Part shown: piece by piece, positions 41,436-62,500 of the stretch
How the letters are laid out: the number at the start of each line of letters is the position of its first letter
How positions within the stretch are numbered: position 1 is the first letter of the stretch
Assembly: GCF_965363235.1 (NCBI RefSeq)
Contig: NC_134845.1
Location: forward strand, 27,096,524 to 27,160,523
DNA: 64,000 nt
Reading direction: 5' to 3'
Source of the DNA: Mytilus galloprovincialis
Lineage: Eukaryota > Mollusca > Bivalvia > Mytilida > Mytilidae
The notes under the pieces: generated by a model
Told to the model about the DNA's origin: nothing
Databases searched by the model: none
The model's input: the letters and a program-made list of their open reading frames with translations, nothing else
Translations under genes and position numbers: made by a program

Positions 41436-44400
41436 TTATACAAGACACTCTACACTTTTTATAGTAACAGTTTTTAAAACAGGATTTATCACAGAATAAT
41501 GGAATACTGGAAAACCGTAACAAGCTGCACCTGAAAAATAAAAAAAATAAATTAATGCATATTTATTACTACCAGTTAATTTTATCAATTTGGGAATGAA
41601 AAATAAATGTCTTTGCAAATGAAAGAGGATTCAGAGTTTATGTCAATAATACAGCAACAAAACAATGCTAAAAGACATTTACAGGTTAACTTTTCTTATA
41701 AAAATATATCTAACCAATACAGAAAAATAGTGAATGAATAAAGTTATAAAAGCATATATTGGTTATTCATTAGCAAAAAGAAATGGTAAAGAAATTGTAA
41801 ACTACAACATGTCAGGATTAGTCCCATAGGACTAAGGATAATTATTTTTTTCTTTGAAGGTTGAACATACACTAATTGAAGAAAGCTACCGGTTTATTCA
41901 AAATAGACTTTTTGTAATCTCAATATGTAGATTAAAAAAGTCATCATAAATGCATATGTAAAAGGCAGTTTTATCAATGTTTTTGAATAGTGAAAGCTTA
42001 GAGCCTACTGAATAAACACAGTAAAAGTTGTGATAATGACTTGAACCACAGTCTCTTGAATTTTAGTGATAAATATAGAAAGAAAACAAATCTAAAAATA
42101 GTATGTACCACTTTTTGATTTTTGGGGTTTTTTTATGCATATTTTTATCACTAAAATTGAAGCAAATGTGCTTGATCATTGTGAAAGTTTTGCTGATAAA
42201 ATACAACTACTAGGAACAAAAGTCTAAAGGGTGAGTGCTTTTTCATTAAGGCTTTGCTGAATGATATATTGTGCATTGTGAATCATTACATCAAAGTCAT
42301 GAGAATAGTGCAGGCAGACTACAATTTTTCAGATCAGTTATCAAATTTTAGAGGCATAAAAGTTTTAGCTATGGCTAACCAAATTACCTGACCAATTGAT
42401 TTAAACAAGAGATGTACGCTTTGGAAAAAGTTTTAAAGGTTTGCTTACAGTTTACTTGATATCAATGTTGTGTGTTCTTTGTGTTACAAAAAAAAGAATC
42501 CATGCTATAAAGTTTTAAACCCCAGAACTTTGTCTATATCTTTGACAAACAAACCCTTGTGCTACTGAAAGTTTTGAAAAAGATTATTTCAACTCACCGA
42601 TTTCCTATTATGTCACTGATGAGTCTTTTGTAGACAAAGGGTGTTTGGCTGTTTTTTAAAGGAAAAAATTGCCAATCGAATGTGAGATGGAAAACAGCAT
42701 GATAAATAGGCAAAGGATGTAGTTTATGCATTTGGGCTGACAAAAGGTGGGTCAAAGATATTGACCTACCATACTGTCCTTGGTGTGTAACAGCCACTAC
42801 GGCTCCAACAAAATTCAGATAATAATCAGTAATTCGTGTCATCGCAGACAGTGTAGCAGTTGTAGGATCATTACCCATTAACATACTGTTTACAGCCATA
42901 TATCTATAAATAGACATGATGCAATACAATAACTCACCATACGTTCCTTTATTGTCTACAGCTATTAAAGCTCCAGAAAACTTTGGATAATATTTAGCTA
43001 TATTCTGAATTGTAAGCTTAGTTATTATTCCTGGAGGTACACCAGCTGCCATCTGACTTACTGCTAAGAATCTAAAATTAGACACTGTTAAAATTATTGG
43101 TGCCATTATTTAATTTAATAAAGATTTTTCTGTAGTAAAACGATCTTTGCTGTCTTTGGCTAATCAAATCAAGCATATTCATAAATTAATGATTATGTGT
43201 ATTGTGATAATAGTGATGTCTAATGTTCGATGTTTTTAATTTTGCTATCAAATTTAGGGTTGTATGAAGCATCTATTATTACTCTCTTCGCTATGTATCA
43301 TCTGGAAAAAAACATAAAAATATAATTATGAGCTTACAATGATAGTATCTCAAAGCATACATAAATTGGTTCCTTGCACTTCATTTCTTCTTTGATTGTT
43401 AAAATTCTATCTGGCATACTAATAACTGAACTGATTTGATTATAATTGAATTAAATGAACAATATTAACAAATAATTACTTACAGCAGTTTGAATTTTTG
43501 TAGCATCTCTTATTTACAAAATTTAAAAAAAAAAACCATATATTTATAAAATCACAGTAAAGATGTTATATAAAACAAGGCATAACATTTTAAGGTATAC
43601 AGTTGAATTTTTTACAGTAATCCTAATAAAAATTAAGTTTATAATTGTTACTGTTATTGTCATATTTTTATCCATAAATCTTAAGGTTTAAATTTTAAAT
43701 TCAACTGGTTATTTTCCAGAAATTATTAAGCAATACTTACGAAGGTAAAAATCTCATCATAACATCCCCGTCTCCAGTAGCAACAGCTCCACCTACACCA
43801 TTCATGGCATATGCACCAGCTCCCATTATAGGGGAATCACCAACTCTTCTATAAATAGAAATGTTTGGTTTAGAAATTACACTCCAGAGACTAGAAATGT
43901 GCTGTAATTTACCTTCAGAAGTCATGCAGGTGTTTCTTCAATTGCTTAAGTTTGTGCAAATTATAAAACATGTCAAATTTATAATCATTCAATATCCCTT
44001 CCTTAAATATTATTGTGGTTGTATTCTTAGTCTACAAATAGAACCTTGATGATTGAATTATAAAAAAAATGTATTGTATATTGTCATTTCCCTTTATGTA
44101 CTCTCAGTGTCTGTCATGACAGTGCATCTAATTCTATAACTATCTTAGATCAAGACAAAGGCAGTGAATTGTGTCAAGTCAATATTGTCCTAGATATTCC
44201 CAACCGAGTGTAAGGACAAACTTACCCAGGTATTTTATGATTGAGTCCATTAGTAGTTGTACCAGCAGTGATATTACCAAATTCATCTATCACTATCATA
44301 CCAATTGTATCATGATTTCTTGGACCAATATTTTTGTTCCTTCTGTTCTCAGTTTGCTGTAAACTTTCTAATACTGACTTGGGTTTGTATGGACCACAGT

Positions 44401-47400
44401 TTTTTGTTGAATCTGGTGTAACATTCTACAAAAGAATATCATGTAACTTTTAAATTGAAACTGTAAATGTTTTGTAAAATGTATTATTGCATAGCAATAT
44501 AATATTCCCCACAGAAAGTAACCAAAAGTTAGCGTGCAATAAATTCTAATATTGCACTAGTGCAATAAATCTTCAAATTCATGACGTCATCAACGACAAA
44601 ATCTCAGTTTAAATCAATTTTTACTTTCAAATATTATATTGCTATACAATAAAAGGGTTATTGCATGAATATTGGGGAACGAGCTCGTGCAATATAAAAT
44701 TCTACTCGGGACAATATTCCCCAATATTCATGCAATAACCCTATATTATAGTAGACCATTTGACAAATCATATCCAAGAATTTGATCTGTAATTTGGTCA
44801 ATATCTATTTGTTTCAAACTGGCATCGTTTTCCATCTGAAATGAATGTTTTTTTTATTTGAACACATATAGATTCAATAAGTAATTTCTCAACAGACCAT
44901 AATACAAAAGAAAATTGTGAGCTATATAACTGATATTTATAGATTATCTTTGATCATCTCAACGAGATTGATATTCTCGCTTGAGCCGGGACGTCGAAAG
45001 AGAGAAAGGCAATCGAGTTGAGATGATCAATGATAATCTGTTTATCGCTATTTTACCTATGACGACGATGTCAATTTCGTTAGTAACGCCACGTGCCTGC
45101 TTAGTTTCTAGCGATAATTTTCCATCTTAAGCAAGTAGCATGATATGAAAATTATATTTTAAATTTGATGTTGCTTAAGGGCATACGATACAGTTACAGG
45201 GAAGGTAATGACGTTGCTAACGTAAAATGTTATTTTCGCAACGTCAAACTCTGACATATCGGGAAAAAATGCATTTTTCGACTGATTTTTACCATTCAAA
45301 CTGATTTAATTGGAAAACGAGTGCATGCACCCCTATTTTTTAAAACAGCAATTTGTTTCATTTTGCAAGGAGATTATGTGACCCAAATTTTATAAAACTG
45401 TAAATAGCGCAATTTTTTTAATTTTGATAAACATGCAGCAAAAATTGACGTTTTTTCCTCTATTCATGAACATTTGATAAATATAGAGTTATTTCAGAAT
45501 AAAAATTGCATAATTTTTAATGATACTTTAAAAATACAGAAATTACCGATTATTTAACAAAAACCATTTTGTGTTTATCTTTTAAAACAAAAAAGTTATG
45601 TTTTTCTTTCGAAAAAGAAAATAAGGACACAAATCTGAATTTCGAGCAAATATACAAAATTTCGACCTTATTTTACTCAAAAAGTAGCACATGAAGGTAT
45701 ATTTTTTATTACATATTTGACTTAATCAGGTAAAAAATAGCCTATATGCAAATTTTCATCAACTTGTAAATACAGGTTCAAAACTGTATCGTATGCCCTT
45801 AAGTCAGAACATAAGAGCACTTTACACTAAGAGCAATATTATTATTCCTGTTCTGTTGAAGAAAATTTTACAATTGATATAAAAGTGTAAATCTAATTAT
45901 TAAAACTGTTTGATTTGTTTAATTATTTTGTTTAGAATAATAATATGTCATGAATAGGATTGAACAAGAGAGAAAATTATATGCATGCATGATAGTTTGT
46001 GTACAGAAGGTCTTGCATTCCAACAACAGTTTCTGGTGGTGCAAGTCAAAAAAATGAATTGAAATAAAGTACATAATTTTTCAGATTTGTATTCTGTTCT
46101 CAATGCTTTGTGTAACATGAAAAGTTTATATTTATCAGGGTGTAAAAAAATGTTGCATCTATTTTGGAAATTAAACGAGAAAAATTCATTAAAGACCAGA
46201 TTGCTCTGAGGGATACGATTGCCATTGTTTTCATTGATACAAATATTAGCATTATTTTCAAAAATATTTCAACTGCACTTGTAAAATGCTCGTAAAATGT
46301 AATTTACGTAATCTGAATAGTTATTCAACTTTAAAAATAGCCAATTCTCGATACAAGTGTATGAACAATGTACTTATTGAGTTTTATTTTTGTACTATCA
46401 ATTCCAAGTTTACTTTCCACAGCAGTCACTGAGAGTGAGATAAAGTATTTCACTTCGTACTGTATCACCTATTTTCCTACGTGAATTCTAGGTGGAAACC
46501 CCATTCCTAACTCTTTAAATATTTAATTTCCTCTGGGTCAGTTGGCATGACTCCATTCCGTACACATTCCTCTGTTTAAATTGCGATTGGTTTTAATATA
46601 ATACAACGTCTATTGACAGAACGAGTTAATTTTTCTCAACGTATCGTCGTTTGACGGTTACTTACGGAAGGGAGACAACTCGAAGCGATAATATGGAAGA
46701 CTCCATTTTGGCTGAAGGGGTGTTCTAGTTACACCTTTACGTTGTGGACTACATTTATTTTAATTTAAATGATGCATATGATTTGAAATTATGCAACAAC
46801 AATAGCCGTCAATAGCAGACAGACATAGAAAAGATCTCACGAGTTTCAAATTAATCAATGGAGTGGGAAATCTAGAGCAACCATTCAATCTGATACCCCT
46901 TGAAGTCAAGAAATCTATACGCATGCACATATTTACTTAAAGAAACCCTAGACTTGTGATTTGTAGCAAGGACATATATTAAATGTTAATTAAACAACCT
47001 CCATTTCTTTATGGAAGTACAATATCAAATATCAGTTTCATAACAGTGACATATAAGAAAACTCCATTTCAGTTCTTATATGACAGAAATAGATTTATTG
47101 ATCGGAATTCAGAGAACTCTCGCATGTTATCAAAACTGGGGAATTCCCTCTGACATGTTTCTAAATTTATAAAAACACTAAATATAAATACTGCTTAGGG
47201 AGGCTTGAGGGTATAAACATTTCGGAAAATAATTAAACATTTATTTATCTATTTTTCATTACAAATTTCATTTATTACCTTTATTAGTTGTATTATCATA
47301 TTGTACAAAAATCATTAAAAAAAACAATTTGTGTCGTCCACAGATGACTTTTAAAATGTATGTGTCATTGAAAATAGCCCCAAATTATCTCCCTTTGATG

Positions 47401-50400
47401 AAAAAATGTTATTTTTTGGCATTAAAATTGAAATATCTTTTTTAACTCATCGGTGACCTATATTTTTTTATTATAATTTTCAAATAAGATGTTCTCAAAC
47501 TAAAATACTGTAAAATTTGAGCGATTTCTGTAATTTACTTCTTTTTTTATTTCGATATTACCTCTATTTCTCCTATTAGTTCAACAGAAAAAAAGTACCT
47601 TTACAAAAATGTATACTTCTTTCGAAGGCAGATTGTGAGCGTAAATGAACGATGACACTGTTTAGTATAAGATAAAGTTCATTTATAGAAAAATATAGCA
47701 AAATCCTATATCAAAATAAAATTTCGATTTAGACCCGCGAGCCCCCTTAATTCTGATTTTCTGTGTTGTTAAAAACACCCATACAAGTCAAGGGAAATAT
47801 AGAAACATGAAGATTATGAGAAGAACATTATAGGACAGTTGTTTAAATTCAATCCTTTTGTTTAAATACAATCTAAAGCAAGACAATCTCAAGAATCTGA
47901 GATGTTCCTTGGTGTTTAGAATAAAACTGTTTACGTGAGGGCATGGCCCTGAGTCAATGGAATAAATCTACAGATTGCTTAAAAGCAATCGTATCCCAAA
48001 AAATATAGTAACACTAGAAAATCTTCATTTTCTTCTATGTTTCCTTTCATTATTGAATTAATGAAACATTATAACTAAGAGTCATGAAGAATATTATTTT
48101 TTTTATTTTCTAGGGGTTGTAAAATCATTTTCTTTTTATTGGTAGATCATCATTTAAATTTGGTTATTGATAAGTTAGAGAGAATATTTCTTGATAACAA
48201 TTAGGTTATGCAAATCTCAAACCAATGAATTAAGGGAGTTGGCTTCACAGTTTCAAAATAATGAACTTTTCAAACCACCAGCATATATTGAAAGAAGATT
48301 AATAAAGGAAGAAAAAGAGCAAAAAAAAATATATAGGTCACTGTGCTTGTTTTCGAGATATTAGCCATTGAAATTTTGGCAGGAAAATGTTCTCTCTTGA
48401 CTTTTCATAGCTTTATCATTGACAAGTTTAAGTCCTCAAAAACTATTAAAAAATAATTAAAATTTTATCAGACTTTAACAGACAGCTTATCATTATACAT
48501 GTAAAAGAATTATAAATAGAAAAATGGGGGTCACAGGGCAAAATTTGTTAAGGCATTCAAATAGATAAAACCATAGGATTCCAAAAATCTTACCAAAATT
48601 CCAAAACATGACAAGCAAGCTTCCTTAATGAATTTCTGAGATATCATGAATAAGAGAAGTTTGCCAAAAAAAAAACCCAAAAAATCATCAAAGAAAACAA
48701 CAATCAATAAAAGGATTAGTTAATCCAATGACCATAATGTATGAGGTAAAACCAGAAGATGGACAAGGGTAAACGAGGAAGGAAAAAGCAACAAAATAAA
48801 ACCATACTGGAGAAAAAAGCTTGTACTGAAATAAACAAGATGTAATGGATGAGTCATATATAAATAGTTAATAAATACTGTACAGTTCTGTAGTTGGGTT
48901 GACAATTCCTTGCTTTCCAATCTTTCCACATGGTAATAGAACTATCTGATGACAGATTCATTTCTTTAAAACCCATCTCTACTGCAAACTGTGTTGCTGT
49001 AATTTAAAGGAATGTGTCCATTTGAGCAAATAACGAAACCTCTCTTAAATTTCAAAGTTACTGTCTAAAAGTATGAGTTTTTCAAACTGGTATTTGTAAG
49101 TTGCATTGCTCATATATGAGTTTCTCAATATCTTTAAAGCAGAAAATACTATATATTTTGATGCACATATTTATTTTTTCATTCATTTTTTGGTACATAA
49201 ATTAGGCCAATAGTTTTCTTGTTTGAATTGTATAATATTTGTCATTTCAGGGCCTTAGATGACTATGCAGTATGGGCTTTGCTTGTTGTTGAAGGCCATA
49301 TAGTGACCTATATGTGTTAATTTCTGTGCCATTTGGTCTCTTGTGGAGTGTTGTCTCATTGGCAATCATACCACATCTTCTTTTTTATATTTTATCACTA
49401 TAGCTACTTTTTTTTGACACTAGTAGAAACTGTATGCTCTACAAGATATAAATTTTTAATGATATATTTTGGTTTATAAGGTGGTACATAGCACTACAGG
49501 GAGATAACTCTGTAAAAATCAGCTAAACTTTTTAATCACATTCTATTGTTAAGGAAATATTAAGCTTCTCAATGATCAAAATGTGAACTTGTAAAACTGC
49601 TTTATATCCAATGAAAATTTTCTGATTAAGTGTGTGGTTCAATTTTATTTTATTTTTTTATATTTTTGTTAAACGGTCAAAGCAAATCTTGTGTCAAAAT
49701 TTAATGAAAATTAACCAAGGCAAATTAGTTTTAGTCAAGGTGTTTGGTACCAATTCAACACTTTTATTATATCATTTAATATTGTTTTTATTGGTATTAC
49801 ATGTAATATTGATTTTGTTATCAGTAAATTAAAAGCAAACTAAATATTGTTGTTATATACATATACACATTCATGGATCTAAAATCTGACGATACCTGTA
49901 TCTTGGCATTGCACTAGTTCATGTTTTTCTTGGACTGTTTATGACATTTTTATCCTTAATCCATTGAATGTTGGATGTGGACTGATTGATAATTAAGTCT
50001 TAGATGCAACTTTTTTTTCATTAGTGGCTTTGAACTAGCTGTCAGTAACTGTGAGTACTCTCAGATCTGTACCTAGTGTCTTTTTGTTGTTGGGATATAC
50101 AAGTACCCGGCCACGTCCACTCTGTAGTATGTGTATCCATCTGATGAGTTAAGCCTTTTTCAACTGATTTTTATAGTTTGTTCTTATGTTGTACTGTTAC
50201 ACTTTCCCAGGTTAAAGGGATGGTTGGGATCCCGCTAACATGTTTAACCCCGCAATATTCTGTATGTGCCTGTCCCAAGTCAGGAGCCTGTAATTCAGTG
50301 GTTGTTGTATGTTGATGTGTTACACATTTGTTTTTTATTATTTTTTTGTACTTAAATTAGGCCGTTAGTTATCTCATTTGAATTGTTTTACATTTGTCAT

Positions 50401-53400
50401 TTTGGGGCCTTTTACAGCTGACTATGTGGTATCTGCTTTACTCATTGTTGAAGGCCGTATGATGACCTATAGTTGTTAATTTCTGTGTCATTTGATCTCT
50501 TGTGGAGAGTTGTCTCATTGGCAATCATACCACATCTTCTTTTTATGGCCCTGCATCGAAGTTGTCGGTGCCATATAGTTTTACCCTTGTCCGTAATTGC
50601 GTCTTTCCGTCATTCCGCCACAAACCATTATACAGAGTTTTTTTCTAAACGTCTTCAGATATGGGGCTGATTTTTGGTATGTGAGTAAACTATGATGAGT
50701 TACACATAACAATCTATACATACCTAATTCTCCCACCAGTAATGTCTGTTCTGTATAGTCCATCACAGATCTGGCTACAGCTATTGCTGTTGGTATACGT
50801 CTTAAACAATCTATACTTACCTAATTCTCCCACCAGTAATGTCTGTTCTGTATAGTCCATGACAGCTCTGGCTACAGCTATTGCTGTTGGTATACGTCTT
50901 AAACAACCTATACTTACCTAATTCTCCCACCAGTAATGTCTGTTCTGTATAGTCCATCACAGATCTGGCTACAGCTATTGCTGTTGGTATACGTCTTAAA
51001 CAATCTATACTTACCTAATTCTCCCACCAGTAATGTCTGTTCTGTATAGTCCATGACAGCTCTGGCTACAGCTATTGCTGTTGGTATACGTCTTAAACAA
51101 TCTATACTTACCTAATTCTCCCACCAGTAATGTCTGTTCTGTATAGTCCATCACAGCTCTGGCTACAGCTATTGCTGTTGGTATACGTCTTAAACAATCT
51201 ATACTTACCTAATTCTCCCACCAGTAATGTCTGTTCTGTATAGTCCATCACAGCTCTGGCTACAGCTATTGCTGTTGGTATACGTCTTAAACAATCTATA
51301 CTTACCTAATTCTCCCACCAGTAATGTCTGTTCTGTATAGTCCATGACAGCTCTGGCTACAGCTATTGCTGTTGGTATACGTCTTAAACAATCTATACTT
51401 ACCTAATTCTCCCACCAGTAATGTCTGTTCTGTATAGTCCATCACAGCTCTGGCTACAGCTATTGCTGTTGGTATACGTCTTAAACAATCAATACTTACC
51501 TAATTCTCCCACCAGTAATGTCTGTTCTGTATAGTCCATCACAGCTCTGGCTACTGCTATTGCTGTTGGTATACGTCTTAAACAACCTATACTTACCTAA
51601 TTCTCCCACCAGTAATGTCTGTTCTGTATAGTCCATCACAGCTCTGGCTACAGCTATTGCTGTTGGTATACGTCTTAAACAATCAATACTTACCTAATTC
51701 TCCCACCAGTAATGTCTGTTCTGTATAGTCCATCACAGCTCTGGCTACTGCTATGGCTGTTGGTATACGTCTTAAACAACCTACACTTACCTAATTCTCC
51801 CACCAGTAATGTCTGTTCTGTATAGTCCATCACAGCTCTGGCTACTGCTATGGCTGTTGGTATACGTCTTAAACAACCTACAGCTCCTACATCAAATGTC
51901 TGTCTGAAATATAATGCATCAGAATCCTTCACTGTCAATACACTATAGTGACAATTCAACTCTCCATTCACATTTTGTATGAATCAAATGTATAAAACAT
52001 TATTACACATAAACATTCTTTAAATATTGAGATTGATCAATTTCTTAATATTTCTGTAATGGATCATTTACACAGAGTATGAGGTCAATTTATTGAGGAT
52101 GAGTTCAAACTCATTCTTGAACACTGTATGTCTGGAACATATTAACTTGTGGGGTAAGTTAATAAAACATCCCTATTGTTATAGGCATGGAATGATTAAA
52201 TTGATACAATTTATTTATTGAAAATCATTTGTCTTTTTGGAGAATATATATTTATTTCTTAAATGTGCCATTTAAATTAAGAGATGTCCAGTGTTCTACA
52301 AAATTAATTGCCCTGCTTTCATGATATTCATGTATTCATGAATAAAGTAGAATATTCATGAATATTCATGAATATTCCACTTCCATTCATGGTTACTATT
52401 CCAGTGTCAAAATTATTCATGAATATGAAACATGAATTAAGTGGAATATACATGAATTCTTAATAACTGTTTGGAGACAACAAATAAATGTTCTTAAAAT
52501 GCTAGTCACTTACTATATCATAGTATAATCAAGTTTCCTTCATTCAAAATTGTTTTTTTGTGGTAATAAAACCCTTTTTGTCAATATGAATAAACATGAA
52601 TAAGAATGAATGTTTGGACTTAGAATTTTTTTGCATACATTTCATGAATAAGAATGAATAATGAGGAATAAATTTTGGACTTAGAATATTTTTTCCATTG
52701 TGTGACAAACATGAATAAGCATGAATAAAGCTGCATGATAATGACTCAGAACTATTTGTGGTAAACGGCATAAAAATTGATAATGAAATTTGTTCTAGGA
52801 CTTTTGTATACGTATATTTTTACTTGATTGTTGATGCGGAATAACATACATGTACATGTATGTATTCCACAGTTAAATGAAAAAAATATATGATAATTTT
52901 AATAGATAGCTCATGTAGGTGATATTCATAACATCTTCATACAAAACACTGAGATGTCAAGAAAATAATAAGCAACAAAAGTGACTTTCAGTCATGTGTC
53001 ATAGATGTTTTCCTGTTCATTTTTGGAGAAAACTAGCCGGTTGGGTAAAGTTAATGAAAGGAAGAAAAGCCAATGCAAAGGACGACGTCAAGCCAGCATT
53101 AGATAGGCCTACATAAGAATTATTGACAATAACAATTTTTGAACAATTCCCAGATAAATGAGAAAAAATATCATTGCATAATTACAAAATGTTCAAAAAG
53201 CTATCCGACTAAACAGGTTTGGATTAAATTCTAGATTAAATAGTGGACAATTTTGCTAGCTTTTAATGAAAGTGATTGTAAAATTCATATTTCACAGCTA
53301 TCATGATTAAAAAATATTTTAAACTTAAATGTCTGTATTTGCTTTTGGTTTTCAAAAAACCTCTCAAGGACACTTATTTCAATATTCATGGTTAATCTAG

Positions 53401-54682
53401 AATATTCAACCATTCAATATTCATAGTTATTCTAGAATATTCAACCTTTCAATATTCATGGTTATTCTAGAATATTCAACCTTTCAATATTCATTAAATA
53501 TTCAAGGTTATTCTAGAGTATGTATTTAGCATTCAAAATTGGGATAGATATATATTTTTCATTCATGGTGATTCTAATCATGCATTATTCATAGACATCC
53601 TATTTCATGTTCATGAATATTCTACAGATAATTATTCATGTTTAATCGTGGTTATTCAGTTCATACAATATTCATGTATATTCAAGCTTATTCAGCTCAT
53701 ACAATATTCATGTATATTCAAGCTTATTCAGTTCAAACAATATTCATGTATATTCAAGGTGCCATTTAACATTCATGAATATTCATGAATATTCATGAAC
53801 TGTTACCTTGAATATTCATGAATATTCATGAATATTATTCATGAATATTCATGAATTGTTCATGAATATTCATGAATAATTCAAGGTCAGGAAAGCAGGG
53901 TAACAATCTCTGCCTGCAGGTTTATTACGAATATTACTACTAATTAAATAGCTGATGAGCTATAAATCTTAAGGTTTTAAAGTATATTAATGTATTACAT
54001 GTACTAGCTATCTCATTATAACAGTTATAAATATTATACAAATGTTGTTTTTATATATGCTTACTCAATAAATCAATGAGCTGATATTTTCTATTTTTTT
54101 TGTCTGTAAAACCACCCTTTTCTTGAAGTGAGGTTCAAACTTTTGCTCCCTGTTGAAGTCCTATTAATGACTTTAAGATGAAGGTAATGTTCCTTTGCAA
54201 TGTGTTTTGTCATGCAAATATTTTGTCTCATGTCTTTTGGTATTTAAAGAAAATTCAATCCTTTACATTTCATTTAGTAATTTGAAAATATATATTAAAC
54301 ATACATTGATCTGTTAAGTTTTTCTTTAAAATCAAAGTTCTTTACTAATGGGCCTTCTATAGATGAAAGAGAGATCTTAGTTTTACTCTATTAAAAAGTT
54401 CAACCATATAATCAGTAATAATTTTATTATTTTTTCTCTAATGTTGATATATCAATACTAAATACAAGTAGTAAAAAAAAGACATGTGAAGTCACTGAGA
54501 TCATCAATAGAAGGTTGTGTTTTACCCATTCATGACCATAGCATCAAGAGTAGTTTCCCCATTCTCATCAGGACTTCCTCCTGGACCCACTGATCCATCA
54601 CAACGCTCTATCTCACACACTGAACATCCATCTACCAAAGCATCATAAATAGACCCCTTCTTATTAACAAGTGTGTTCCAAG
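41436..54682 (-). CDS. AGA: Aspartylglucosaminidase, paralog 1 (signal-peptide exon not found)
   Basis: Lysosomal N-terminal-nucleophile hydrolase that cleaves the GlcNAc-Asn bond of degraded N-glycoproteins. Exons in order of transcription: 54526-54682, 51791-51903, 48884-48996, 44226-44425, 43741-43848, then either 42938-43071 or 42770-42903, and 41436-41530 (stop). Sizes 157, 113, 113, 200, 108, 134 and 95 nt, all GT-AG and in phase. Key sequences: [45 protein letters not shown] (Thr is the autoprocessing and catalytic residue), [39 protein letters not shown] and GAACYGF near the C-terminus. The active-site set is intact. The exon with the signal peptide and NTW motif should lie between 54683 and about 59500 but I could not identify it. 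Oddities: duplicated exon 7, and a twelve-unit array made from the end of exon 3 (50709-51887). Paralog 2 is at 59590. Confidence 0.93.
42770..42903 (-). CDS. AGA: AGA1 alternative exon 7b
   Basis: 134 nt, acceptor TATTTATAG, donor GTAGGT. Encodes (S)[20 protein letters not shown] and onward to [14 protein letters not shown]. It is homologous along its whole length to exon 7a and has identical phases. GNDPTTAT is closer to human GEDPTIAC than exon 7a is. The intron to 7a would be only 34 nt. Confidence 0.9.
42938..43071 (-). CDS. AGA: AGA1 alternative exon 7a
   Basis: 134 nt, acceptor CTAATTTTAG, donor GTGAGT. Encodes (S)[20 protein letters not shown] and onward to [14 protein letters not shown]. 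It occupies the same place in the protein as exon 7b. Including both would add 134 extra nt and shift the frame, so only one can be used per functional mRNA. Confidence 0.9.
44480..44755. mobile_element. Fold-back element with TTATTGCATGAATATTGGGG arms
   Basis: The inner arms TTATTGCATGAATATTGGGG and CCCCAATATTCATGCAATAA are inverted. A second, outer-left pair AGCAATATAATATT / AATATTATATTGCT is also inverted. AGA1 intron between exons 4 and 5, about 55 bp from exon 5. Ends approximate. Confidence 0.6.
44941..45039. mobile_element. Small fold-back element
   Basis: AGATTATCTTTGATCATCTC is inverted as GAGATGATCAATGATAATCT, with a GC-richer centre (GAGCCGGGACGTCGAAAG). Typical MITE hairpin of about 99 bp. 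Confidence 0.65.
45175..45802. mobile_element. TTAA-flanked inverted-repeat element, copy 2 (piggyBac-like MITE)
   Basis: TTAA on both sides, ends GGGCATACGATACAGTT and AACTGTATCGTATGCCC. 628 bp, longer than copy 1 because of extra internal segments, for example the one containing TAATGACGTTGCTAACG near the left end. The retained CG in the ends suggests the younger copy. AGA1 intron 4. Confidence 0.75.
46210..47997. mobile_element. Possible inverted-repeat element, 1.8 kb
   Basis: GGGATACGATTGC at 46210 and GCAATCGTATCCC ending at 47997 are perfect 13-bp inverted matches enclosing non-coding DNA. No target duplication is visible, so this may be chance or an old element. Otherwise the AGA1 intron 4 stretch 45803-48883 is AT-rich with no gene that I can see. 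Confidence 0.3.
49205..49395 (+). repeat. Repeat family A tail
   Basis: AGATGACTATGCAGTATGGG, TGTTGAAGGCCATATAGTGA and TTGTCTCATTGGCAATCATA with a T-rich end. AGA1 intron 3. Confidence 0.7.
50025..50545 (+). repeat. Repeat family A, full-length copy
   Basis: GAACTAGCTGTCAGTAACTG, ACCCGGCCACGTCCACTCTG, TTATGTTGTACTGTTACACT, GTGCCTGTCCCAAGTCAGGA and the standard tail CATTGGCAATCATACCACAT. This is the most complete family member in the window. It ends about 165 bp before the exon-derived array. Confidence 0.7.
50709..51887 (-). repeat. 97-bp tandem array of twelve units built from AGA1 exon 3 and its splice donor
   Basis: The block CTAATTCTCCCACCAG recurs at 50724, 50821, 50918, 51015, 51112, 51209, 51306, 51403, 51500, 51597, 51694 and 51791, an exact 97-bp period. 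In AGA1 sense each unit is GTAAGTATAG (10 nt) plus the last 87 nt of exon 3, which codes for [20 protein letters not shown] and onward to LLVGEL. The unit ending at 51887 is the real exon 3 (51791-51903), the only one with a proper acceptor. Units next to it share its CTACTGCTATGGCTG variant while distal units have CTACAGCTATTGCTG, so the array grew stepwise. Reading straight through gives a stop in the second unit. Confidence 0.95.
52311..53900. mobile_element. ATTCATGAAT-rich block bounded by CCCTGCTTTC inverted repeats
   Basis: 1590 bp. The left end CCCTGCTTTC and right end GAAAGCAGGG are perfect 10-bp inverted repeats. The interior is packed with TTCATGAATATTCATGAA palindromic runs, TTCTAGAATATTCAACC repeats (about 53390-53520) and ATATTCAAGCTTATTCA repeats (about 53680-53750). 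No target duplication was recognised (flanks AATTAATTG and TAACAATC). The minus frame 52544-52771 is not gene-like. I read it as a satellite-like expansion inside a non-autonomous DNA element, in AGA1 intron 2. Confidence 0.55.
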
Positions 54683-59202: not shown

Positions 59203-59589
59203 CATTTACGGTAAAAAAAAAGTTATCATGTATAGGCAATAAATTTTACAAACCAGCTGCTGTGGCGTTTGTAAAAGGCCAAGTGTTTATCACTACAGGC
59301 AATAATCCAGTCTGAGTCTGCGATGAACAACTTAACGGATAAAAAACAAAAATTGCAAAAATTAATAATGAAAAGCAGGGCGCGGACATCTTTTTGTCAT
59401 GTGACCAAACATTGGCAGTCACGGTACAAATGTTGTTTACTTGTTACATGAAACTTCAAATGGAGTATTTTCCATTTAAAATTATTAACACAGACAAATT
59501 TTATTCAATATTTTGGAACAATGTAATATTTGTAATTATTTGTTGTGATATCATGTGACAGTCATGTGACCATTTTGTAAATAAACAAA

Positions 59590-62500
59590 ATGATTTCTGT
59601 TATCGTCACCTTTTATTTGATTATCAACGTCAGTTCACAAAATTTACCTATTATTATCAACACCTGGTTTGTTTCCAACGCTACCTATGCAGGTATGTAA
59701 ACTTTCAGTGTTAACTTGTTACTTTTCATAAAGTGTGGACACAAATACATGTCTGTGAAAATTCCACTTCCTCAGATAGAATTCTTATAGATATACCTAT
59801 CGATATACTAGTATATGTTCCTGGTATACCATGCTTTTTCAAAAATATAATTAGAAAATTAGTTATCACCTCGCTCTATTTCAAGTTACAAACGTGCAAA
59901 ATCGCCCAAAGTTGCATAGATTATTCATGACTGAAAAAAACTCTCAGTTTTGTAAATATAAAGAAATCTATCAGATATACCAGTAACATATATGTTAGAT
60001 AAACTGTTCTCAGGATATACAGTATAGAATTTTGAAATAAGATATATTTAATAAAAAGCTTTTATAAAAATCATAATAAAAAAAACGGTGTCACCAAGCT
60101 TGTTTTCCTGCTACAAGAAGAAATTGAAAATTTCTTAAACATATCCGAATAGAAATTTTACTATTTGTGTTAAATGTCCCCTTAAATTGCTTAAAAATTG
60201 CGAATTTTACTCATTTGCAAGGAACTAGATTAACTATGTAGTGCTAATGGCTGATAAATTAAGCCTAATATACAATCTAACATAGCGACAGTTTATTTAC
60301 CTTTAAAAATTATTTTATTGATTGAACGTGACATTGCTCAACGTTCAGAGGCCATTATTTTATACAAATTCAGGACTCGATTTTTTTTCAAAATAAATAC
60401 AATAATAAGTTTTGTAACATCCTGTCGTGCCTGACAGCCAAACGTACGCGGCCCCAATCGAAGACTAGTCCAGTGATTACTGTGTGTCTATACCTTTCTT
60501 TTTTTTTGTCCTGTTTCAACTGTCAACGTTTATTTGTCCGCGTAAACGAAATTCCTCTAGAGACTTCGTTATTAACAATGTTATGATATTTGTTCCTATT
60601 GAGCCATTATTTCGTTAGGAACTTAAACTGTTACTCCCCTCCATTTGGAATAACTGTGTGTGCTGTGTCATCTTCCTTGTTAGTTATTACCACAAGCCTT
60701 TTCCATTTGCAGTCTTTATAATCGTTATATAGTTTGTAGCTATAATCAGCGTCCTTTTAAGCAGAAGCCTCTTGAAAATTGTTATTTTTTTTTACAATTA
60801 AGCATGGGAGGAATTAACTGCCCACGGCGGTTCTGCAGTGGATGCTGTCGTGGCCGGATGCAGTCAGTGTGAAGCCTCCCAATGCAGAGGGACTGTTGGA
60901 TTCGGAGGTGACCCAGATGAGAATGGTGAAACAACCCTTGACGCCATGATAATGGACGGGTATTTTTTTTCATAATTCTTTACTTTTTTATTATTTTTGT
61001 TTTTAATTTCCTAATTTTTTTTCATTACATATGCACCACAGTAGTAGTAAAGCATTTTACATTTACATCACCTAACGATATTCCATTGCTATTTTTGTGA
61101 TAATATTCAGACCTTCTCCGAAATTAAGATAGATGACAAACCACTGCATTGTCCATTTGGGCGGCATAGCTAGAAGATTACTTGCACAGTATCACGAAAA
61201 CATGTTATTATGCAGCCATGCTGAGAAATGACAATGGATAGCATAGTGTGGCATTTTCGTGATATTTTTTTTACTAAGAAGTTTACTGGGTTTTTTTTTA
61301 CGGGGAATGTTGCATTGTACCATACGGACAATGTACGACATTATGAGTTAGTATGGATATTATAACGAAAGTTTAAAGGTGAAGACAAACGAAATCTCTT
61401 ATAGAATAAGACATGAAGCTTCAACAATACATCTTCGTTTTTTGTTTTTAACAACGAGTCTAGCTGTTGATGACATCTCTTTAAGGTTACTCAGCGGATT
61501 TGTGCATTCAGAGTAATTTTGGAGAGAAATTTTCTTTATGATAATAGAAGTTTTTAACGACATCGACTGGTTATATAGTCCTCGTACGGTCGGTAAAATT
61601 GCTTTACCATTCTCAAACATATTTTTATTGAAGAACATGACATCTCATTTATTTTTACTATACGATCTTTTGTGTATTTGCACTTGACTATATAAATGAT
61701 GTATATATATGTGCATGCTTTGTGTGAAATATATATTTTCCCTTTTATAATATTTTCACCATAAGTAAAACCATGGATGTTGGAGCTGTGGCTGCTTTAA
61801 GACTGGTGAAACCAGCAATAGCTGTTGCTCGAGCTGTGATGGATTATACAGAACACACATTGTTAGTAGGAGACCAAGGTAAATAAAAACGTTATAATTA
61901 AGGGTTGGTACCAACCTCTCCTAGGATGCTGATACTTTAATGCGAAAATCTTTTCAATTAAGTTATAGCACAACTTCTTTATATGTATTCAAATGTTTTC
62001 GTGGTTTGGTTCAAGGACTTAATAAATTAAGTGTTTCCAATATTAAAGCACGAAACAGTATATGAAATATGATACATATCCAGTTTGCTTTTAGTTCTGA
62101 ATGTGTTGTGCCTAGTGGAGAAGCTGCAGATACCAATTTTGAAGTATTTCGTCCTCCCGAACTCGAGGCGAGCACGCTACAACGAGATCATCAAGTCGGT
62201 TCATTTTCAACGAAGAAATACAGTTGTATTTAAACTATCTCTTCCATAACTATTATCTATTTACATTTTCTTTAACTGCAGGTGTGTGGGGTATCTGATA
62301 ATCCTAGGAGTTACATATTGTTTCGTTTTATTTGTTTAAGCCTCGTTATTTGCGAAGGACATGGGATTTACTATAGAAACGCTGACAACAAACAAGTCTC
62401 ACATCGAATGGAAGAACTGGATCAACAATAAATGTCAGCCAAATTTTAGAAAAGTTGGTATTACCCCCCTTCTGATTGTTGCGCTTTTTACTTATAAAAA

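Follow-up and report, generated by a model that had tools for sequence, protein, structure and literature searches.

The window, by which we mean the whole stretch of 64,000 nucleotides of Mytilus galloprovincialis DNA analysed here, carries on its minus strand (59389-41436) an intact eight-exon gene, with exon lengths of 136, 157, 113, 113, 200, 108, 134 and 95 nt and exon phases that are all compatible. Exon 1 (59254..59389) provides the start codon and a signal-like N terminus, shows homology to exon 1 of a paralogue, and ends in the donor CTG|GTTTGT; it is followed by exon 2 (54526..54682), by exon 3 (51791..51903), which ends at the first donor of a 97-bp array, and by exon 4 (48884..48996), whose donor ACT|GTACAG is weak. 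Exon 5 (44226..44425) carries an HD|TIGM site, exon 6 (43741..43848) carries GRVGDSP and ATGDGD, and exon 8 (41436..41530) supplies the C terminus and the stop codon. Between the latter two lie not one but two exons of 134 nt, 7a (42938..43071) and 7b (42770..42903), separated by a spacer of 34 nt (42904..42937, made up of the 7a donor and the 7b acceptor), while the exon 6 donor TTC|GTAAGT and exon 8 are common to both choices; all of these features are on the minus strand. Spliced translation of this gene model yields 351 aa without a stop, either with 7a or with 7b.

The original prediction had assigned this gene to aspartylglucosaminidase (AGA), and this identity is confirmed. The predicted proteins match the Pfam Asparaginase_2 domain with 242.3 bits (7a form) and 243.3 bits (7b form; cut-off 27), and their best PDB match is the human AGA beta chain 1apy_B, with 130.0 and 132.8 bits respectively. 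The human alpha chain 1apy_A is matched with 213.0 bits, using as query the spacer-retained form described below, whose alpha part is identical. HD|TIGM, GRVGDSP and ATGDGD all align with 1apy_B, the threonine of the first falling opposite the human beta chain's first residue; we take this threonine to be the AGA nucleophile at the cleavage site. Across the constitutive part of the protein, 143/221 residues are identical to human AGA. By its domain, both of its chains and its motifs, the gene product is identified as an aspartylglucosaminidase, with activity and self-cleavage predicted.

The same contig carries three further AGA-like genes in plus orientation, P2, P3 and P4, each with one 134-nt exon 7. 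P2 starts at window position 59590, reads as an intact protein of 338 aa and extends beyond the window end; its start codon stands head to head with that of the AGA gene (59389, minus strand), and the roughly 200 bases between the two suggest a shared promoter region. P3 and P4 (G000:C8:27165900-27173753 and 27180214-27184967) look damaged: P3 loses the frame at the join of exons 6 and 7, whereas in P4 two copies resemble exon 3, the frame is broken within exon 6, and none of exons 1, 2 and 4 was matched at E 0.01. Within the AGA gene itself, the array that begins at exon 3 (51880-50708, minus strand) comprises 12.1 copies of a 97-bp unit with 97% matches, repeating the 3' part of exon 3 together with its donor, such that 11 GTAAGT and one GTATGT sites are present. 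The full protein is obtained from the first donor only and an early stop from each of the 11 others, and the array is possibly a natural system of donor competition. Another array was seen in an Asparaginase_2-like gene on another contig (L016 249-3220; G000:C4 ~19.33-19.34 Mb, minus strand), where an 87-bp unit encoding the GDGD-like stretch of the family is present in 34 copies with 86% matches; its consensus contains a donor-like CAG|GTAGGT, and the frame is not open throughout, with three ORFs of 128-144 aa.

Exons 7a and 7b had been proposed to be diverged tandem copies of equal length and phase, and their comparison agrees with this. They share 70/134 nucleotides and 18/46 residues, so that 28/46 residues differ, and their ungapped BLOSUM62 score of 86 was equalled by 0/100,000 shuffles (mean -35.6, sd 13.6); the common ancestry of the two exons is clear from their sequences. 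A profile built from the five copies themselves and the human segment, with stops read through, matched 7a with 77.1 bits, 7b with 81.5, P2 with 83.9, P3 with 92.3 and P4 with 92.2, and over the 64.5-kb cluster it detected no further or decayed copy, the next match having 1.6 bits. Beyond the exon-7 copies, whole-genome protein searches added no more than exon 8 and, elsewhere, a single weak match (E 2.47). Both copies are flanked by AG and GT, with donors ATG|GTGAGT for 7a (8/9 consensus positions) and ATG|GTAGGT for 7b (7/9), a score of at least 7/9 being reached by 45/1,199 GTs in the 24 kb scanned. The 7b acceptor, tttctatttatag, resembles that of exon 6, tgtctatttatag. The usable splice sites and open frames claimed for both copies were thereby recovered, as was the 34-nt distance from the 7a donor to the 7b acceptor, and the four junctions predicted from them (43741|43071, 43741|42903, 42938|41530 and 42770|41530) agree with the gene model.

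We then considered how old the pair is and whether both copies have been kept under constraint. Compared pairwise with one another, with the exons of the neighbouring genes and with the human segment, 7a and 7b share 18 to 21 of 46 residues. The distance between them is thus about as large as that to the neighbours and to human AGA, indicating either an old duplication or fast change in both copies. In the constitutive part, the AGA gene and P2 are identical at 146/222 residues and P2 and P3 at 148/221; for exon 7, the corresponding values are 20/46 between P2 and 7a, 18/46 between P2 and 7b, and 27/46 between P2 and P3. Pooling both copies gives 38/92 against 27/46 (p = 0.07; 7a alone, p = 0.21), which is suggestive of faster change in the exon 7 copies, though not significant. 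Of 13 columns invariant in P2, P3, P4 and human AGA, 12 are kept by 7a and 11 by 7b. Neutral evolution of the copies was simulated, without indels, to the nucleotide identity observed: for the two copies, the frame stayed open in 8.2% and 5.7% of runs, AG and GT were retained in 6.3% and 5.7%, an identity of 18/46 was attained in 1.5% and 1.4%, and all three occurred jointly in 2/20,000 and 1/20,000 runs. Judged by these simulations, neither copy has long been free of constraint, a result with which recent disuse is compatible. Differences between 7a and 7b by codon position (22/45, 18/44 and 24/45) are uninformative. Trees of exon 7 placed 7a and 7b as sisters in 14% of bootstrap replicates for protein (46-residue segment, 6 rows) and in 68% for DNA (134-nt exon, 5 rows), the latter with a long-branch warning; dating of the duplication by these trees was dropped, as the two disagree and are weakly supported. 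Asparaginase_2 loci at C3:57.08, C3:46.74 and C4:19.34 Mb, which match the AGA protein in part, were left out as outgroups. Gene model, homology, long-term constraint and spacer length are thereby shown.

The arrangement of the two exons suggests how one of them would be chosen. The donor of exon 6 would be joined to the acceptor of either 7a or 7b, and the chosen copy to exon 8. Skipping of exon 7 and direct joining of 7a to 7b both break the frame, and the latter leads to early stops in the spliced translation. Going upstream from the 7b acceptor, the first AG is met after 31 nt, within the 7a donor, and the branch point of 7b is therefore expected within the 34-nt spacer. The need for a distance of about 50 nt between 5' splice site and branch point has been described, with assembly abolished at 35 nt on one substrate (PMC6692369), and in the OGDH exon pair a distance of 25-41 nt enforces exclusivity (PMC7969005). 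These limits were measured on vertebrate and viral substrates, and we carry them over to this animal by inference. Here the entire spacer is 34 nt, which leaves less than about 50 nt between the 5' splice site and any branch point between the two exons, and the 7b branch point would have to lie in the spacer or in 7a; the earlier claim that the spacer is too short for a normal intron is upheld by this comparison. With the 7a donor and the 7b branch point within 34 nt, U1/U6 and U2 would be unable to engage together. Use of 7a and 7b with the spacer excised would then be blocked by crowding and, if such a transcript were made, its frame would meet a stop. Since the spacer is below the limit of about 50 nt, mutually exclusive splicing enforced by crowding is our best reading, and the explanation we favour, at odds of roughly three in four, is that the AGA gene is intact and that one of its internal exons, duplicated in tandem, is spliced in this way. 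We infer under this explanation that both exons are used, exclusively of each other and by reason of crowding, and that their products differ in function. A contribution of RNA structure, through competing base-paired elements such as a docking site and selectors, was also sought: a 361-nt stretch around the pair showed no stronger folding than shuffled sequences (z -0.50, 30/100 as good). Over 2,430 nt, 29 inverted-repeat pairs were counted, without a chance control; the longest among the 25 of these 29 that were listed, likewise without such a control, spans 56 nt at 75% in the intron between 7b and exon 8.

Retention of the spacer is the outcome that reading frame does nothing to prevent. 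The length of one copy plus spacer (134+34 = 168) is divisible by three and the spacer has no in-frame stop, so that a transcript with both copies and the spacer encodes an open product of 407 aa. The original prediction, that inclusion of both copies would shift the frame, thus stands for transcripts from which the spacer is removed, which meet early stops, and falls for those that keep it; exclusivity is not enforced by frame against the spacer-retained form. 7a, spacer and 7b could accordingly be a single 302-nt composite exon (43071-42770), encoding a tandem-duplicated stretch of 56 residues, within which 42938 and 42903 would be unused or alternative sites. The three parts do share one open frame (a 171-aa ORF), and the 407-aa product scores 247.3 bits for Asparaginase_2, slightly above each isoform. 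Chance, however, would produce an open spacer in register in about 16% of cases (0.47 of shuffles open x 1/3 for length), and such a spacer therefore speaks weakly for the long form being produced. A composite exon would also have no need to keep a strong internal donor, nor an internal acceptor that resembles that of exon 6 (tttctatttatag and tgtctatttatag). Its match to the human beta chain drops to 117.7 bits, as compared to 130-133, and stops short of the C-terminal part, and the segment occurs once in each of P2, P3, P4 and the PDB relatives found. We consider a composite exon improbable on this balance. The 168-nt duplicated unit and its open spacer further make conceivable a three-way switch, in which one gene would give three products: an enzyme with 7a, an enzyme with 7b and a longer one in which the segment occurs twice. 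We regard this as a long shot, under which a single exon of a lysosomal hydrolase would combine exon duplication, mutually exclusive splicing and alternative splice sites. The long form has the junctions 43741|43071 and 42770|41530, two of the four originally proposed for telling the isoforms apart, and counts of these two alone therefore cannot separate it from a mixture of isoforms. A spacer that keeps the frame means that junction counts alone are no proof of exclusivity.

Equally doubtful, in our estimate, is that one copy goes unused, having lately lost its role or never having been efficiently spliced in, while the other is constitutive. Each copy departs from the family somewhere: 7a in its DPxxA stretch and by its charge of +3 (0 in P2-P4), 7b at the conserved proline of YYP, and the pooled identities above (38/92 against 27/46, p = 0.07) hint, without significance, that both are changing faster. 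Against this, both are open, with AG, GT and full length kept and 11-12 of 13 invariant columns retained despite great divergence, and the simulation excludes long neglect, a recent loss of use being compatible with it. That the gene is a pseudogene or is misspliced, for instance via the 11 extra donor-like copies after exon 3, each of which leads to an early stop, or through weak donors such as that of exon 4 (4/9 consensus positions), is very improbable given eight open exons with matching phases, retained catalytic motifs, 143/221 constitutive residues identical to human AGA and a full product from the first exon 3 donor.

Under mutually exclusive splicing, the segment exchanged would be one of 46 residues near the C terminus of the beta chain. 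Its net charge (K+R minus D+E) is +3 in 7a, -1 in 7b, 0 in P2, P3 and P4, and +1 in human AGA, and it has two cysteines in human AGA and none in 7a, 7b, P2, P3 or P4. Exons 5 and 6 encode HD|TIGM, GRVGDSP and ATGDGD, none of which falls within the segment that is exchanged, and a difference between isoforms in stability, assembly or sorting is for this reason likelier than a new reaction. AGA, which acts in glycoprotein breakdown, is usually regarded as existing in one form, and its loss leads to a lysosomal disease in humans. A maintained exon swap, if true, would mean that part of its beta chain is tunable with the catalytic motifs untouched, and would constitute a natural experiment on which residues of the segment tolerate change. 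The 34-nt spacer would at the same time be an extreme test of the crowding model for exon choice.

Human AGA (1apy) is matched over most of the length of both its chains, and we know of no second copy of exon 7 in the human gene. Among the matches listed in the open-access literature, we found no duplicated-exon switching for AGA, and no paper that combines aspartylglucosaminidase with bivalves. Duplicated exons that are swapped have nevertheless been described elsewhere. Published criteria for predicting mutually exclusive exons are similar length, frame and homology, and on the Drosophila X chromosome they also captured 90/16,180 otherwise-annotated exons (PMC3228551); 7a and 7b are alike in length, frame and sequence, keep AG and GT, and are internal, between exons 6 and 8. 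In human, swaps of tandem-duplicated exons are few, at 236 events, and most of them are ancient (PMC9741552). The pairs of alpha-tropomyosin and OGDH (4a/4b; PMC7969005) resemble the one described here in being homologous exons with less than about 50 nt between donor and branch point. They differ in having normal-sized introns with a distant branch point, whereas the whole spacer of the AGA gene is 34 nt; their exclusivity was measured, whereas that of 7a and 7b is predicted, and the host genes are unrelated. Exon 10 of the oyster CvAOX gene (PMC5589949) likewise encodes a part of the enzyme close to its C-terminal end and is duplicated in tandem, with old divergence and a swap of one segment. 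The CvAOX copies, however, are terminal exons with a stop in each and a longer transcript containing both, and both forms were observed in RNA, whereas the AGA exons are internal. Exons 6a and 6e of coq-2 in helminths, annelids and molluscs (PMC7434440) are, like 7a and 7b, internal homologous exons of an enzyme, and they are mutually exclusive; their swap changes the quinone product, whereas the AGA segment lies outside the catalytic motifs. Switching between duplicated exons is already known, in mollusc AOX and coq-2, and AGA would be a new host for it, well supported at the level of DNA and predicted at the level of RNA. An exon swap in a lysosomal AGA would be unexpected for that enzyme, which this mussel probably builds with either version of the segment.
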